This document shows positions 15,498 through 19,320 of a stretch of DNA of 32,192 bases, in pieces. The first letter of the stretch is position 1. Each line of letters begins with the position of its first letter. A program made the translations under genes and the position numbers. The stretch comes from Lachnospiraceae bacterium (GTDB lineage: Bacteria > Bacillota > Clostridia > Lachnospirales > Lachnospiraceae), in the NCBI GenBank assembly GCA_029062885.1, contig JAIDPH010000399.1:1-32192 (forward strand), written 5' to 3'. The notes under the pieces were generated by a model. It saw only the letters and a list, made by a program, of their open reading frames with translations. It was not told the origin of the DNA and did no database searches.

Positions 15498-15734
15498 TTA
15501 AATCAGGCGATAGATGATAACCGCCAGAATTATGCCGATAATACTGGCAACCGTTATCTTAATAGAAAGACCAAAGGTTATGCACAAAATACCAAGGTCT
15601 AAAACAACCGGCGATGATAAACCGAAGGACTGTCCATAATTCAGCCACGCTACAGGTAATAAATTACCTATGAAACCTCCTATTACAATACCTGCCAGTA
15701 TTAACAAAAAACATGCCCAGTTGTTCTTACTCAT
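15498..15734 (-). CDS. DUF4321 small membrane protein
   Basis: A 78-residue protein with two hydrophobic helices: residues about 6-29 (ACFLLILAGIVIGGFIGNLLP) and about 45-76. The pattern GGFIGNLLP and LDLGILCITFGLSIKITVASIIGI fits the DUF4321 family, usually found beside radC or maf and mreB in Clostridia. Function is unknown. The frame is open to 15794, but the ATG at 15734 has GGGAGG with 5-6 bases spacing, and the upstream part overlaps the likely promoter. It is probably the first gene of the radC-mre-min-rod transcript. Confidence 0.88.
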   Translation of the reverse strand: MSKNNWACFLLILAGIVIGGFIGNLLPVAWLNYGQSFGLSSPVVLDLGILCITFGLSIKITVASIIGIILAVIIYRLI

Positions 15735-15765
15735 ACCTACCTCCCATAAACATACACTGTTTATT

Positions 15766-15794
15766 TTATCATAATCTTTTTTTGATGTATACAA
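15766..15794 (-). promoter_or_regulatory. Possible promoter upstream of the DUF4321-radC-mre cluster
   Basis: TTGTAT (15789-15794) and TGATAA (15766-15771) are spaced by 17 bases in an AT-rich gap; an overlapping TAAAAT is an alternative -10. The gap separates the ABC exporter operon from the long cell-shape cluster, so a promoter is expected here, but the hexamers are not strong. Confidence 0.42.
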
Positions 15795-15810: not shown

Positions 15811-16605
15811 TTACATTCTCGCTTCCATAAGATTGCTTGAAGAGTATCTTCTTAATCCGCGGTAAAATACAAATGCAGCTAACGCCGAAATTAAAACTGT
15901 ATATCCAAGTATCGTCAGAAATATACACAAATCAAAATCCATCATAACATGCACCGGCAGATATACAGACATACCTACCGGAATGATCAAGTATATCAAA
16001 AATCTCACAGCACCCTTAAAAATACCGTCCGGATAGGTAGAAAAGCTTATTAGTATATTAACCATATTGCTTCCGAAGATTTCCACCCTGACCAGCCAGA
16101 AGGATAAACTTCCCATGAACAGGGCAAATGCTGTTCCGATTATCGCGCCGGTTATTGAAAAAATAAGAAACAGCGCAAATCTTACGAAACTAAATGAAAA
16201 AATGCAAATAATAATTATTCCATAGATGAAATCCCCTATTGCCGAGGTATTTGTTTCCGATGTCAGCACACTCAGCAGTACATTCTTAGGCTGAACCAGA
16301 TAAGTATCAAGTTTACCGTTTATAATAAGGTCCGGCAGTGAAAACGCCCTTGCAAAAAAGATTCGCGAAAGGCCGAAACTGCTTGCGCAAAGCCCCCACA
16401 GGAGCATAACCTCATTAATCGTATACCCGCCTATATCCTCCTTTAGACGGAATAAAATTACCCATTGTATTATAAATGAGGCGTTGTTAAGCATCATAAA
16501 ACAAATGTTGGTTATAAATGTTACTTTATTTATCATCTCTCGCATTATATTATACTTAACCGAAAGCGCACATACCTTTAACTGATTTTTAACCGCCGTT
16601 AACAT
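15811..16605 (-). CDS. ABC-2 family transporter permease
   Basis: A hydrophobic protein of about 264 residues with roughly six membrane helices, of the ABC-2 type family whose members pair with a second, similar permease and a DrrA-like ATPase (PF06182-like). A typical segment is FSLPDLIINGKLDTYLVQPKN, where such permeases have a conserved GxLDxxLxxP motif. The frame reaches an ATG at 16629, but that codon has no RBS. The ATG at 16605 has GGGGG about 12 bases upstream and overlaps the preceding permease by 17 bases. Substrate is unknown. It is the last gene of the exporter operon. Confidence 0.85.
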   Translation of the reverse strand: MLTAVKNQLKVCALSVKYNIMREMINKVTFITNICFMMLNNASFIIQWVILFRLKEDIGGYTINEVMLLWGLCASSFGLSRIFFARAFSLPDLIINGKLDTYLVQPKNVLLSVLTSETNTSAIGDFIYGIIIICIFSFSFVRFALFLIFSITGAIIGTAFALFMGSLSFWLVRVEIFGSNMVNILISFSTYPDGIFKGAVRFLIYLIIPVGMSVYLPVHVMMDFDLCIFLTILGYTVLISALAAFVFYRGLRRYSSSNLMEARM

Positions 16606-17380
16606 AGAGCTTCTTTGCCCCCTTTCCATAAATAAAAAACATAATCATAAAACCGACAGCCAGATATATTATCTGAGCGGAAAAAATTTCCAGAAATTTC
16701 TCCGTACTAAAGTCTATAAACAGCTTGGCAGGACCATAGCAGACCGTGTAAATCGGCGTAAGCTTAAAAACCGGCTGCAAAGATGCCGGAAATATTTCTA
16801 TCGGAAATATTGTTCCTATTACCAGAATCATCTTGTCATACAACCATTGGAACGGATTGGAGTCTTCTATCCAAAAAGAAAAAAGACTGATTGTGAGCTT
16901 AAAAACCGCATTTATTGTAACTCCGAGAATTAAGCTTAAAATTCCGGCAATAAGTCCGACGATGCTAAGACCCGGAATAGTTCCAACCATCAAAACTCCC
17001 ATTACTACAACCAGAACTGCATACATTGGCAGCTTAATGCTCCATTCACCTGTATATTTTGATAAAATATAAAGAGTGTAATGATACGGCTTGCCTACAT
17101 GATAAGCAATATTACCGCCCCGGACATCTGCCGCTGCCTGCCTTGACACAGTCGTTGAACGGCTGCCAAACCATATCATTTCCGTAAGCATGACATACCA
17201 GATCATCTGCGTTTTAGTATATCCGGCAATCAGTTCTTCCGGATTATCATACATATAATTCCATAACTGTATGAAGATAAAAATCATTATAAAATAACTG
17301 ACAAATCCCATAACAACATTCATTATATATTGCAGGTTTTCAATTAGCACCGATTTATAAATCACAGCATATTTTCTCAT
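16589..17380 (-). CDS. ABC-2 family transporter permease
   Basis: A 263-residue permease with about six hydrophobic helices. It carries the motif DVRGGNIAYHVGKPYHYTLY, the counterpart of the GxIxxxLxxP segment of the second permease in this operon. The ATG at 17380 overlaps the ATPase stop as ATGA, so the two are translationally coupled. With the other permease it forms the membrane part of a heteromeric exporter. Export of a drug or lipid-like compound is plausible from the family, but no substrate is indicated by the sequence. Confidence 0.86.
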   Translation of the reverse strand: MRKYAVIYKSVLIENLQYIMNVVMGFVSYFIMIFIFIQLWNYMYDNPEELIAGYTKTQMIWYVMLTEMIWFGSRSTTVSRQAAADVRGGNIAYHVGKPYHYTLYILSKYTGEWSIKLPMYAVLVVVMGVLMVGTIPGLSIVGLIAGILSLILGVTINAVFKLTISLFSFWIEDSNPFQWLYDKMILVIGTIFPIEIFPASLQPVFKLTPIYTVCYGPAKLFIDFSTEKFLEIFSAQIIYLAVGFMIMFFIYGKGAKKLYVNGG

Positions 17381-18372
17381 AATACCGCCTCTTTTCGTCC
17401 CTCCGCCTTATAGATTTGCGTGATAATATCTTCCAGTGGGATATTGGATATGTTGATATCTTCTATGTTATCTGCATCAATACAATGGAGCGCCTCATTA
17501 ATTTTAAGAATTGATGTATCCACCTCAAACTTGATATGGCCTCCATTTTCCTTAAGGACAACTATTCCTTCTGACATAGGGAGTCTGGTCTCTTCATGAA
17601 GCTTAACTTCAACTATTTTTCTATTCAGATAGTTGTACTTCAAATGCTGCATGGAATCGTCTAACACAATCTGTCCGTTGTTCACAATTATAATCCGTTT
17701 ACATAACTTCTCAATATCCCCCACATCGTGGCTGGTCAGGAAAATTGTCGTATGAAAGTCCCTGTTCATCTGCTTTATCAGTTTCCTGATATTTTCCTTT
17801 ACAACCGGGTCAAGACCTATCGTGGGTTCATCCAAAAACAGGATTTTAGGTTTGTGAATAAGCGATGCAACGATTTCACAGCGTATGCGCTGACCTAAGG
17901 AAAGATTCCTTACAGGAGTATTTATAAATGCCCCAAGTTCAAAGGTTTCTGAGAGTTCGTCAATCCTCGCTCCTATTTCGCTATCCGGAATATCATAAAT
18001 CGCACCGAAGAAACGGAAATTGTCATATGGAGTTAAGTGTGTCCATAGCTGTTCTTTCTGTCCGAATACCGTTCCAATCTCATAAGCAAGCTGTTTTCTT
18101 TTCTTCACAGGGTCAATTCCAAGCACTTCAACTTTTCCGCCGTCCGGATAAAGAATTCCTGTAAGCATCTTAATGGTAGTGCTTTTCCCGGCGCCGTTAG
18201 GCCCGATAAATGCAAGAATTTCACCTTCTTCCACGTCAAAGGATAGCTTGTCTACCGCTTTTATTTCTTCTGTTCTTGGATGCACTATCGCTCTTAAGCT
18301 TCCCTTCATTCCTTTTTCCTTCTGCTTTACCAGAAAGGTTTTTGATAAGTCTGTTACTGTGATTGCTTTCAT
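17377..18372 (-). CDS. ABC transporter ATP-binding protein (ABC-2 / DrrA-type exporter)
   Basis: A 331-residue ATPase. Walker A GPNGAGKST is at residues 57-65, the Q-loop FGQKEQLW near 103-110, the signature LSLGQ at 157-161, Walker B ILFLDEPT at 177-184 and the switch His in LTSHD near 215. The N-terminal 30 residues before the usual ABC start, with KTFLVKQKEKGMKGSLRAIV, and the C-terminal extension of about 90 residues match ATPases that pair with PF06182-like permeases. The ATG at 18372 has GAGGAGG with 9 bases spacing. It is the first structural gene behind an attenuator-like leader, which suggests the operon is inducible. Confidence 0.93.
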   Translation of the reverse strand: MKAITVTDLSKTFLVKQKEKGMKGSLRAIVHPRTEEIKAVDKLSFDVEEGEILAFIGPNGAGKSTTIKMLTGILYPDGGKVEVLGIDPVKKRKQLAYEIGTVFGQKEQLWTHLTPYDNFRFFGAIYDIPDSEIGARIDELSETFELGAFINTPVRNLSLGQRIRCEIVASLIHKPKILFLDEPTIGLDPVVKENIRKLIKQMNRDFHTTIFLTSHDVGDIEKLCKRIIIVNNGQIVLDDSMQHLKYNYLNRKIVEVKLHEETRLPMSEGIVVLKENGGHIKFEVDTSILKINEALHCIDADNIEDINISNIPLEDIITQIYKAEGRKEAVL

Positions 18373-18432: not shown

Positions 18433-18484
18433 AAAAAAAGAACCGCAATGTTACATACACCTTAGTGTATATACCATGCGGTTC
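18433..18484 (-). terminator. Strong intrinsic terminator in the ABC exporter leader
   Basis: Minus-strand outer stem GAACCGCA / TGCGGTTC (8 bp) and inner stem ATACAC / GTGTAT with loop TAAG, joined by a mostly paired stretch, followed by seven T. It lies 60 bases before the ATPase ATG. Its 5-prime arm can alternatively pair with an upstream segment (18501-18509). Confidence 0.88.
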
Positions 18485-18563
18485 AACTTTTATCCTGATT
18501 ACCGCATAGCCAAATAAGACTTCCTCATCTTACGGCCATGCGTTCTTCCGAAATAAACCGGAT

Positions 18564-18638
18564 TTAGGTAGTGACCGTAATAGAAAGTCCAGGGACTAGC
18601 ATAATCATAATAAACTGCACATTGTTTTTAGAGTTCAT
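18564..18638 (-). CDS. Possible 24-residue leader peptide of the ABC exporter operon
   Basis: ATG at 18638 is preceded by GAGGAA with 6 bases spacing and opens a 24-codon frame (MNSKNNVQF...LSITVTT) ending in TAA at 18564. It has a short polar start and a hydrophobic middle (IMIMLVPG). Its last codons contain the first pairing segment of the attenuator. It is too short to call by composition; the case rests on the RBS and its position. An overlapping -1 frame stays open from 18627 to 18499 but lacks an RBS-supported start. Confidence 0.5.
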   Translation of the reverse strand: MNSKNNVQFIMIMLVPGLSITVTT

Positions 18639-18683
18639 AATCAGTTCCTCGTTCAAACTTCAAAATAGTATAAAATTTCAAAA

Positions 18684-18712
18684 AGAATACCACAGTATTT
18701 CTGAAAACGCAA
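18684..18712 (-). promoter_or_regulatory. Candidate promoter of the ABC exporter leader
   Basis: TTGCGT (18707-18712), a 17-base spacer and TATTCT (18684-18689) preceded by an extended -10 TG one base upstream. It lies between the NUDIX stop and the leader frame. A TATACT 12 bases further downstream is an alternative -10 without a matching -35. Confidence 0.52.
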
Positions 18713-18759: not shown

Positions 18760-19320
18760 TTAATCAACTTTAGACTGTGTTACAAAGGAATACGCTGCCA
18801 TCTGTGCCCTCGAACTAAATTCCTCAGTTTCCAGCAGTTCACGTACTTCTTCCCTGCTGTAAAACTTCGCTTCAATTAATTCATTATCGGAAGTATGGTC
18901 TTCAAATGCGCCTTCTGCTTCCACAAATGCAATCTGTGTCTTAATATCAGAAATGGCAATCGCCGAAAAAGACGGCGGTAAGATTTGAAGTACCTTTTTA
19001 AGTTGTAGACCTGTTTCCTCATACAATTCTCTTTGTATACATTCCTCAATAGATTCCCCGGCTTCTATCATTCCGGCGCACAGATTATATACATAGCGGT
19101 TGACGCCCATCCGGAACTCCTTAAGAAGCAATAGTTTGTCTTCACAATATGCCACAATGGAAACGCCGCTGATATGATTCCCCAATTCTTTTTCATCAGC
19201 AATCTCATGCCTGCTGACAATTTCATAAACCTTCTCTTTACCCTTTTTATTCAAATATGTCAATTCATAATTTTTTAAATATTTTCCGTCTTTTACCTTC
19301 TTAAGATTCAATAACCTCAT
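18760..19320 (-). CDS. NUDIX hydrolase, ADP-ribose pyrophosphatase-like
   Basis: A protein of 186 residues with a complete Nudix box from Gly83 to Leu105 (GMIEAGE...RELYEETGL) and the preceding NLCAG. The N-terminal strands (KNYELTY, YEIVSRHEIA) and the downstream PPSFSAIAISD and DNELIEAKFYSREEV fit the ADP-ribose / nucleoside-diphosphate-sugar pyrophosphatase subgroup. The exact substrate cannot be assigned. The frame is open to an ATG at 19347, which has no RBS. ATG 19320 (MRLLNLKKV) has AAGGGA about 12 bases upstream and fits family N-termini. It follows RNase G by 51 bases on the same strand. Confidence 0.88.
   Translation of the reverse strand: MRLLNLKKVKDGKYLKNYELTYLNKKGKEKVYEIVSRHEIADEKELGNHISGVSIVAYCEDKLLLLKEFRMGVNRYVYNLCAGMIEAGESIEECIQRELYEETGLQLKKVLQILPPSFSAIAISDIKTQIAFVEAEGAFEDHTSDNELIEAKFYSREEVRELLETEEFSSRAQMAAYSFVTQSKVD

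Follow-up and report, generated by a model that had tools for sequence, protein, structure and literature searches.

What governs transcription of the three-gene exporter operon on the minus strand of Lachnospiraceae bacterium contig JAIDPH010000399.1 (positions 1 to 32,192, the whole stretch analysed, hereafter the window)? The region upstream of the operon, 18433-18712 on the minus strand, had been described in a first-pass annotation as a multi-state attenuator with a leader frame and five pairing segments, an observation that is real and understated. The four helices proposed there, 0:1, 1:2, 2:3 and 3:4, are all present at their reported positions as contiguous helices of 9, 9, 9 and 8 bp, and they exclude one another as described. 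The sequence of the candidate promoter with its extended -10 was likewise found at 18684-18712, and the 24-codon frame (18638-18564) with a GAGGAA RBS at 18645-18650. Beyond that list, the region contains a lower half of helix 0:1, a small covarying hairpin and a sixth segment, L, with segment 2 as its partner. The features are as follows.

18684..18712, minus strand: promoter-like site TTGCGT-17-TATTCT, read from the sequence, with TG upstream of the -10 (-35-like TTGCGT at 18707-18712, 17-nt spacer, TATTCT at 18684-18689)
18645..18650, minus strand: RBS of the leader frame, GAGGAA, read from the sequence
18564..18638, minus strand: leader frame of 24 codons plus stop, MNSKNNVQFIMIMLVPGLSITVTT*, from the sequence and related frames
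18594..18607, minus strand: segment L, inside the leader frame, pairing with segment 2 and its 3' flank (18496-18511)
18572..18590, minus strand: segment 0, upper part 18572-18580 with 18530-18538, lower part 18582-18590 with 18517-18525
18547..18562, minus strand: small hairpin between segments 0 and 1, 18558-18562 with 18547-18551
18517..18542, minus strand: segment 1, partner of segment 0 or of segment 2 (18534-18542 with 18503-18511)
18496..18511, minus strand: segment 2 with its 3' flank, partner of L, 1 or 3
18473..18486, minus strand: segment 3, partner of segment 2 (18474-18482 with 18501-18509) or of segment 4
18433..18447, minus strand: segment 4 and U-run, forming the intrinsic terminator, 18440-18447 with 18477-18484, U-run at 18433-18439
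17377..18372, minus strand: ABC ATPase, 331 aa, PF00005 (E 9.7e-31)
16589..17380, minus strand: 263-aa protein, presumed membrane subunit, its frame overlapping that of the ATPase by 4 bases
15811..16629, minus strand: ABC-2 permease, 272 aa, PF06182 (E 2.3e-29)

All nine pairs form in each of the helices 0:1, 1:2 and 2:3, with one G-U apiece, and all eight form in 3:4, which is followed by seven U. The frames of the operon overlap, and the 263-aa protein has no Pfam or NCBIfam match. We take DUF990 to be PF06182. A table in PMC5417439 gives the DUF990 family as the ethyl viologen exporter family, TC 3.A.1.141. Both the ABC ATPase (PF00005) and the DUF990-type permease (PF06182) that characterize TC 3.A.1.141 are encoded here, and the operon is a putative exporter of this type. 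A DUF4321 protein (PF14209) is encoded at 15498-15794 on the minus strand, starting 16 bases behind the last permease.

We propose, at a probability of about 0.75, that the region is a six-segment (L, 0, 1, 2, 3, 4) ribosome-mediated transcription attenuator controlling the ABC-2 exporter operon. A ribosome at the stop codon would cover segment 0, so that 1:2 and the terminator 3:4 form and transcription ends. A ribosome held at about codons 9-13 would cover L and leave segment 0 free, so that 0:1 and 2:3 form and transcription continues into the exporter genes; the trigger would be elongation stalled early in the frame, at these codons. With no ribosome on the frame, L would keep segment 2 from segment 3 while 0:1 forms, leaving segment 3 free for the terminator as a fail-safe.

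A search of the genome collection with the ATPase returned 228 relatives, from which 80 loci were kept. In 28 of these (L031-L058; by record 26 Lachnospiraceae bacterium, one Roseburia sp. and one Acetatifactor muris DSM 23669, L055) an RNA of the window's type lies upstream of the ATPase, with a leader frame in 27. Another eight loci carry diverged leaders with the same architecture in largely different letters, namely three from Herbinix (L059, L060, L080), one from Lachnoclostridium phytofermentans (L061), three from Anaerocolumna (L062, L065, L092) and one from a Clostridiales MAG (L102). All eight preserve L:2, 0:1, 1:2 and 2:3 and a terminator hairpin. Related leaders thus precede the orthologous ATPase in 36 of the 80 loci kept (28 + 8). 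A frame of 156 aa lies between attenuator and ATPase in L041 (2517-2987) and at the same place in L049, and in one genome two stop codons lie within the ATPase frame (G674:C15:31467-32306), whose leader looks intact.

A covariance model of segments 1-4, built from 28 sequences with L031 excluded, matched at 85 bits or more in 35 of the 77 genomes of the window's genus (37 of 77 at E ≤ 0.01), and the ATPase was found at E ≤ 1e-110 in 35 of the 77. RNA and ATPase occur together in 34 genus genomes, with one exception on each side: in G719, which has the ATPase without an RNA match, the ATPase starts at base 76 of its contig, at the contig edge; in G704, the RNA lacks a leader frame and tblastn found no ATPase within the 3-kb locus. 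Outside the genus, the RNA is rare: of 397 family genomes, 6 gave a match, of which two belong to the genus, one is weak, one is a decayed copy and two are others; of 295 order genomes, 2 did, namely the window's and one with a weak match. The ATPase is similarly rare there: at E ≤ 1e-120 it turned up in 3 of 150 family genomes, counting that of the window. A DNA search of 299 family genomes gave a match at E ≤ 0.01 in 35; besides the window, L002 and L003 coincide with RNA-model positions, and we take the remaining short matches to be mostly chance. RNA-model matches were also seen in G691 and G693 (28-34 bits), and we take those in G129 and G650 (35-37 bits) to be spurious, L116 and L117 having neither the core motif nor an exporter frame. 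In L115 (G264) segments 0-2 are kept and the leader runs straight into a remnant of the permease frame; neither a terminator nor, within the 3-kb locus, an ATPase frame was seen, and this locus reads as a decayed copy. Spread by mobile elements was considered and rejected, as the exact 19-base core had no match in viral contigs and the L033 leader none in plasmids or phages.

We aligned 51 sequences, comprising 50 non-redundant leaders (out of 61 found) and L047, and evaluated the two exclusive folds. In the read-through fold (upper and lower 0:1, small hairpin, 2:3), 91.2% of 1562 cells were paired and 35 were changed on both sides; in the termination fold (1:2, 3:4), 97.5% of 1472 cells were paired and 24 were double-changed. 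For both folds, none of 500 shuffles reached the observed pairing, double-changed cells or covariation score. In the termination fold, the number of pairs with a double change was matched by 4 of 500 shuffles and the pair types by 28 of 500. As a control, sliding the partners by 1-3 columns left just 27-52% of cells paired in the 51 sequences. The first 29 sequences gave the same covariation picture for both folds. The small hairpin has changes on both sides in 5 of 5 alignment pairs with 81.3% of cells paired, and helix 3:4 is paired in 96.4% of cells. The covariation is uneven: 4 of 9 pairs of 2:3 are invariant, and double changes are absent from the lower stem of 0:1. Compensatory change and conservation in orthologous leaders, which the first-pass annotation had named as the check on its reading, were thus both found in these 51 sequences, and the attenuator with its ribosome logic is well supported by comparison.

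A detector for complete four-helix chains pointed the same way, finding one in 27 of 81 upstream regions versus 33 of 3000 length-matched background stretches. These 27 comprise 26 of the 37 regions held to carry the attenuator, plus L104. The best background chain scores, up to 81, overlap the attenuator range of 74-94. A stricter first version (7 of 81 versus 3 of 3000) was too strict and was replaced by this looser one. The case for the attenuator is carried mainly by the comparative evidence, and the detector counts for less.

Is the leader frame itself conserved? An RBS-like sequence and a leader frame are present in 48 of the 48 related leaders having enough upstream sequence, and 5' of the frame an extended -10 pattern occurs in 34 of these 48, together with a -35-like hexamer in 26. 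The part of the frame 5' of segment 0 shows modest coding constraint in 46 of the 50 leaders (L031, L039, L053 and L144 were left out): third positions are more variable (p = 0.013), and the BLOSUM score was matched by 3 of 300 column shuffles. For the first 27 leaders, the corresponding values were p = 0.06 and 10 of 400 shuffles. The pN/pS of the leaders, 0.74-0.87, is alike in true and shifted frames. Segment 0 is conserved as RNA, because in L057 and L058 the leader stop codon precedes ACGGTCA, and in L053 the frame differs after QIF with the RNA unchanged. The RNA is also present in L047, where the frame has no start codon, and in L135 without a leader frame.

The earlier scheme of segments 0-4 holds in its pairings and folds and was incomplete, since segment L also pairs with segment 2. 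On comparative evidence, L is a sixth segment predicted to pair with segment 2 across the family, with covariation. It is made of codons near the putative stall site, and their partner is segment 2 together with its 3' flank. In a fixed register, at least 6 of 7 L:2 pairs form in 22 of 47 leaders (47 of the 50; L031, L053 and L144 were left out), for example as CTGATTA/TAATCAG or TCGATTA/TAATCGA. Free of a register, the L:2 duplex averages -12.93 kcal/mol in 46 leaders versus -10.89 kcal/mol with partners swapped between species, and none of 5000 swaps was as good. Shuffling the codon order gave a mean of -9.27 kcal/mol, with 0 of 200 as good. Within subgroups, the swap test was weaker in the subgroup of 26 leaders (44 of 5000 as good) and gave 1 of 5000 in the subgroup of 20; the latter draws L from codons 6-11, as ATGGTC/GGCTAT in L147 and ACGGTC/GGCCGT in L149. 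In the eight diverged leaders, stretches in codons 2-13 pair with segment 2 (1 of 20000 permutations as good). In L059 and L062, the segment 2 of another species pairs better than their own. The window's own L duplex with segment 2 has -11.6 kcal/mol, yet at the decision point P(L:2) is close to 0 there and the equilibrium fold lacks this pairing. Across the 46 leaders, at least five L:2 pairs are expected in 22 in the equilibrium fold.

A ribosome covers 14 nt before and 15 nt behind its P site. With this footprint, we folded 46 leaders up to segment 4 (46 of the 50 non-redundant leaders, as in the L:2 calculations; L031, L045, L053 and L144 were left out), the held ribosome standing five codons before the QIF position, which is codon 11 in the window. 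With the ribosome on the stop codon, P(1:2) exceeded P(2:3) in 46 of 46 leaders, at means of 0.94 and 0.03. With the ribosome held mid-frame, mean P(2:3) was 0.32, above P(1:2) in just 20 of 46 at equilibrium. With no ribosome it was 0.10, above P(1:2) in 10 of 46. The ribosome logic proposed earlier stands for the stop codon, where 1:2 forms throughout, and only in part for the held ribosome. These equilibrium folds take no account of the order in which the segments are transcribed, and that order should favour 0:1 over 1:2.

In the window, P(2:3) is 0.76 without a ribosome, 0.80 with a held one and 0.01 with one at the stop codon, and because the first two values are so close, the calculation does not support an OFF state of the untranslated leader for the window. 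The three states are well separated in some other leaders (L046, L049, L129, L147, L149), and the fail-safe, as we infer it from these models, emerges clearly from the calculation for some relatives but not for the window. Since L pairs with segment 2, termination is predicted to be favoured in many relatives when the leader is not translated. The rule that no translation means ON, which had been drawn from segments 0-4 alone, was abandoned in general after L was found and stands by calculation for the window. From the fold probabilities, the stop-codon state is robust, the held state is permissive and the fail-safe is drawn at the level of the family. The U-run after the terminator hairpin is weak in L136, L142, L144 and L150, so termination may be weaker or Rho-aided there; the U-run counts for L035 and L045 are void owing to parsing errors.

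The state logic resembles that of the Salmonella his attenuator. In passages of PMC4046918, a slowed ribosome there allows B:C and D:E to form and transcription continues, and E:F terminates when the ribosome is at the stop codon or, without translation, as A pairs with B. Our leader shares the frame and this logic, as far as those passages describe it, with L, 0, 1, 2, 3 and 4 in the places of A-F, and both his-type fold sets, 0:1 with 2:3 and 1:2 with 3:4, are conserved with covariation. It differs from his, as described there, in that the fail-safe pairing found here joins L with segment 2 (the place of D) rather than A with B, in its exporter target and in having no sequence relation that we found; moreover, the leaders have no run of a single codon, and Ile is enriched, not invariant.

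In B. subtilis, the passages of PMC4191407 report that blocking translation of the bmrB leader raised termination and that induction by lincomycin required translation. There, too, an ABC exporter is preceded by a leader frame and a terminator, with three successive alternative structures predicted for bmrB. It is unlike ours, in those passages, in that bmrB has 53 codons with the terminator inside the frame and bmrCD is another type of ABC transporter; here the frame ends at 18564, the stop codon is followed by the terminator (18433-18484) at a distance of about 117 nt, and the switch has two additional segments. Short upstream frames of B. subtilis tlrB (PMC6851288), Bacillales hflX (uORFC-6-1, PMC8632094) and E. 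coli toiL (PMC12121999) have been shown or proposed, in the passages concerned, to sense ribosome-targeting antibiotics; their genes, peptides and structures, as given there, differ from those of this leader, and the R/K-x-R/K motifs of the tlrB and hflX leaders are absent from the window's leader peptide. No Rfam 15 family matched the window at its gathering score, the best match below threshold having 22.5 bits versus 65.6 needed, and 13 further loci gave just an unrelated tmRNA in L106. A known RNA family was rejected on these below-threshold matches, and such leaders go unmarked in annotation as no Rfam family matches them. The literature searched, some of it by passages, contained no description of this leader. 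We regard it as resembling a variant of his-like attenuation logic, with its own L:2 wiring and an exporter target.

What would hold the ribosome? The switch is probably an alarm for blocked protein synthesis, and a translation inhibitor is the signal that suits an exporter best; a compound stalling the ribosome is the likeliest cause, and one we favour. The serious rival, though one of fairly low probability, is an isoleucyl-tRNA sensor, in which starvation or an inhibitor of the synthetase lowers charged tRNA-Ile, the ribosome halts at Ile codons 9-12, as happens in leaders of amino-acid biosynthesis genes, and the RNA part is unchanged. Ile occurs at codons 9-12 in 55 of 58 leaders, and its fraction, 0.147 in 50 leaders and 0.169 in the 8 diverged ones, exceeds the 0.087 of seven window proteins. 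At the two central positions, however, it is not invariant (present in 36 of 46 leaders at -5 and in 18 of 46 at -4, with mostly M in the others), ATT codons are partly constrained by the pairing with segment 2, no leader has the run of one codon typical of his, and an exporter would be an odd target. As Ile is enriched but not invariant at these codons, tRNA-Ile shortage stays a rival. A cause other than a stalling compound or this shortage seems comparably unlikely.

Much less probable is a riboswitch-like RNA that senses a small molecule directly, with the leader frame incidental. The sequence of segments 1 and 2 is very conserved within the window's genus, as a riboswitch would have it, and some orthologs in other lineages carry an aptamer-like RNA at the same place. 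A different conserved RNA, GUGAGUAUGUAUAAG..AGCUACAUAGGG..ACACGU..ACGGAGUCAC, stands before the exporter ortholog in at least 16 of the 52 other loci (L064, L068, L071, L073, L081-L086, L090, L094, L098, L099, L106, L109), about 100-330 nt upstream of the ATPase; a first pattern for it had matched L084 alone and a second 15 of 52. Seven of its 20 predicted pairs changed on both sides, its 3' part seems to overlap an intrinsic terminator, and L064, L066, L068 and L084 had no match at the Rfam gathering score, as against the tmRNA in L106. This second RNA is an orphan riboswitch candidate. For the window's type of leader, by contrast, a frame with an RBS-like sequence accompanies the RNA in all 48 leaders examined, segment 0 sits at the end of the frame or just behind it, the diverged leaders swap letters yet retain the pairings, and no Rfam match was obtained, all of which speaks against direct sensing.

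The least probable explanation, that the upstream NUDIX gene simply has its terminator here or the leader is unregulated, the alternative pairings being by-products of repeated segments, has in its favour the strong terminator and the NUDIX gene ending at 18760 on the same strand, but both exclusive folds covary, the RNA tracks the ATPase across the genus, and the leader frame and promoter-like site stand in between.

We return to the attenuator responding to a stalled ribosome. In its fullest form, it would be a band-pass sensor, closed when the leader is idle or normally translated and opening the exporter only on arrest near codons 9-13; an old Lachnospiraceae architecture whose pairings were kept through near-complete turnover of sequence, with L:2 wired unlike his, reporting ribosome-targeting compounds. 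This extended version is tentative, a possibility short of even odds, because the folds of the window do not support the untranslated-OFF state. If true, a poorly studied DUF990 exporter type would be tied to a translation-stress signal in Lachnospiraceae, which would offer a handle on the role of the exporter. The family would also be a natural experiment in the evolution of RNA switches, in which several mutually constraining pairings were kept while the letters changed.
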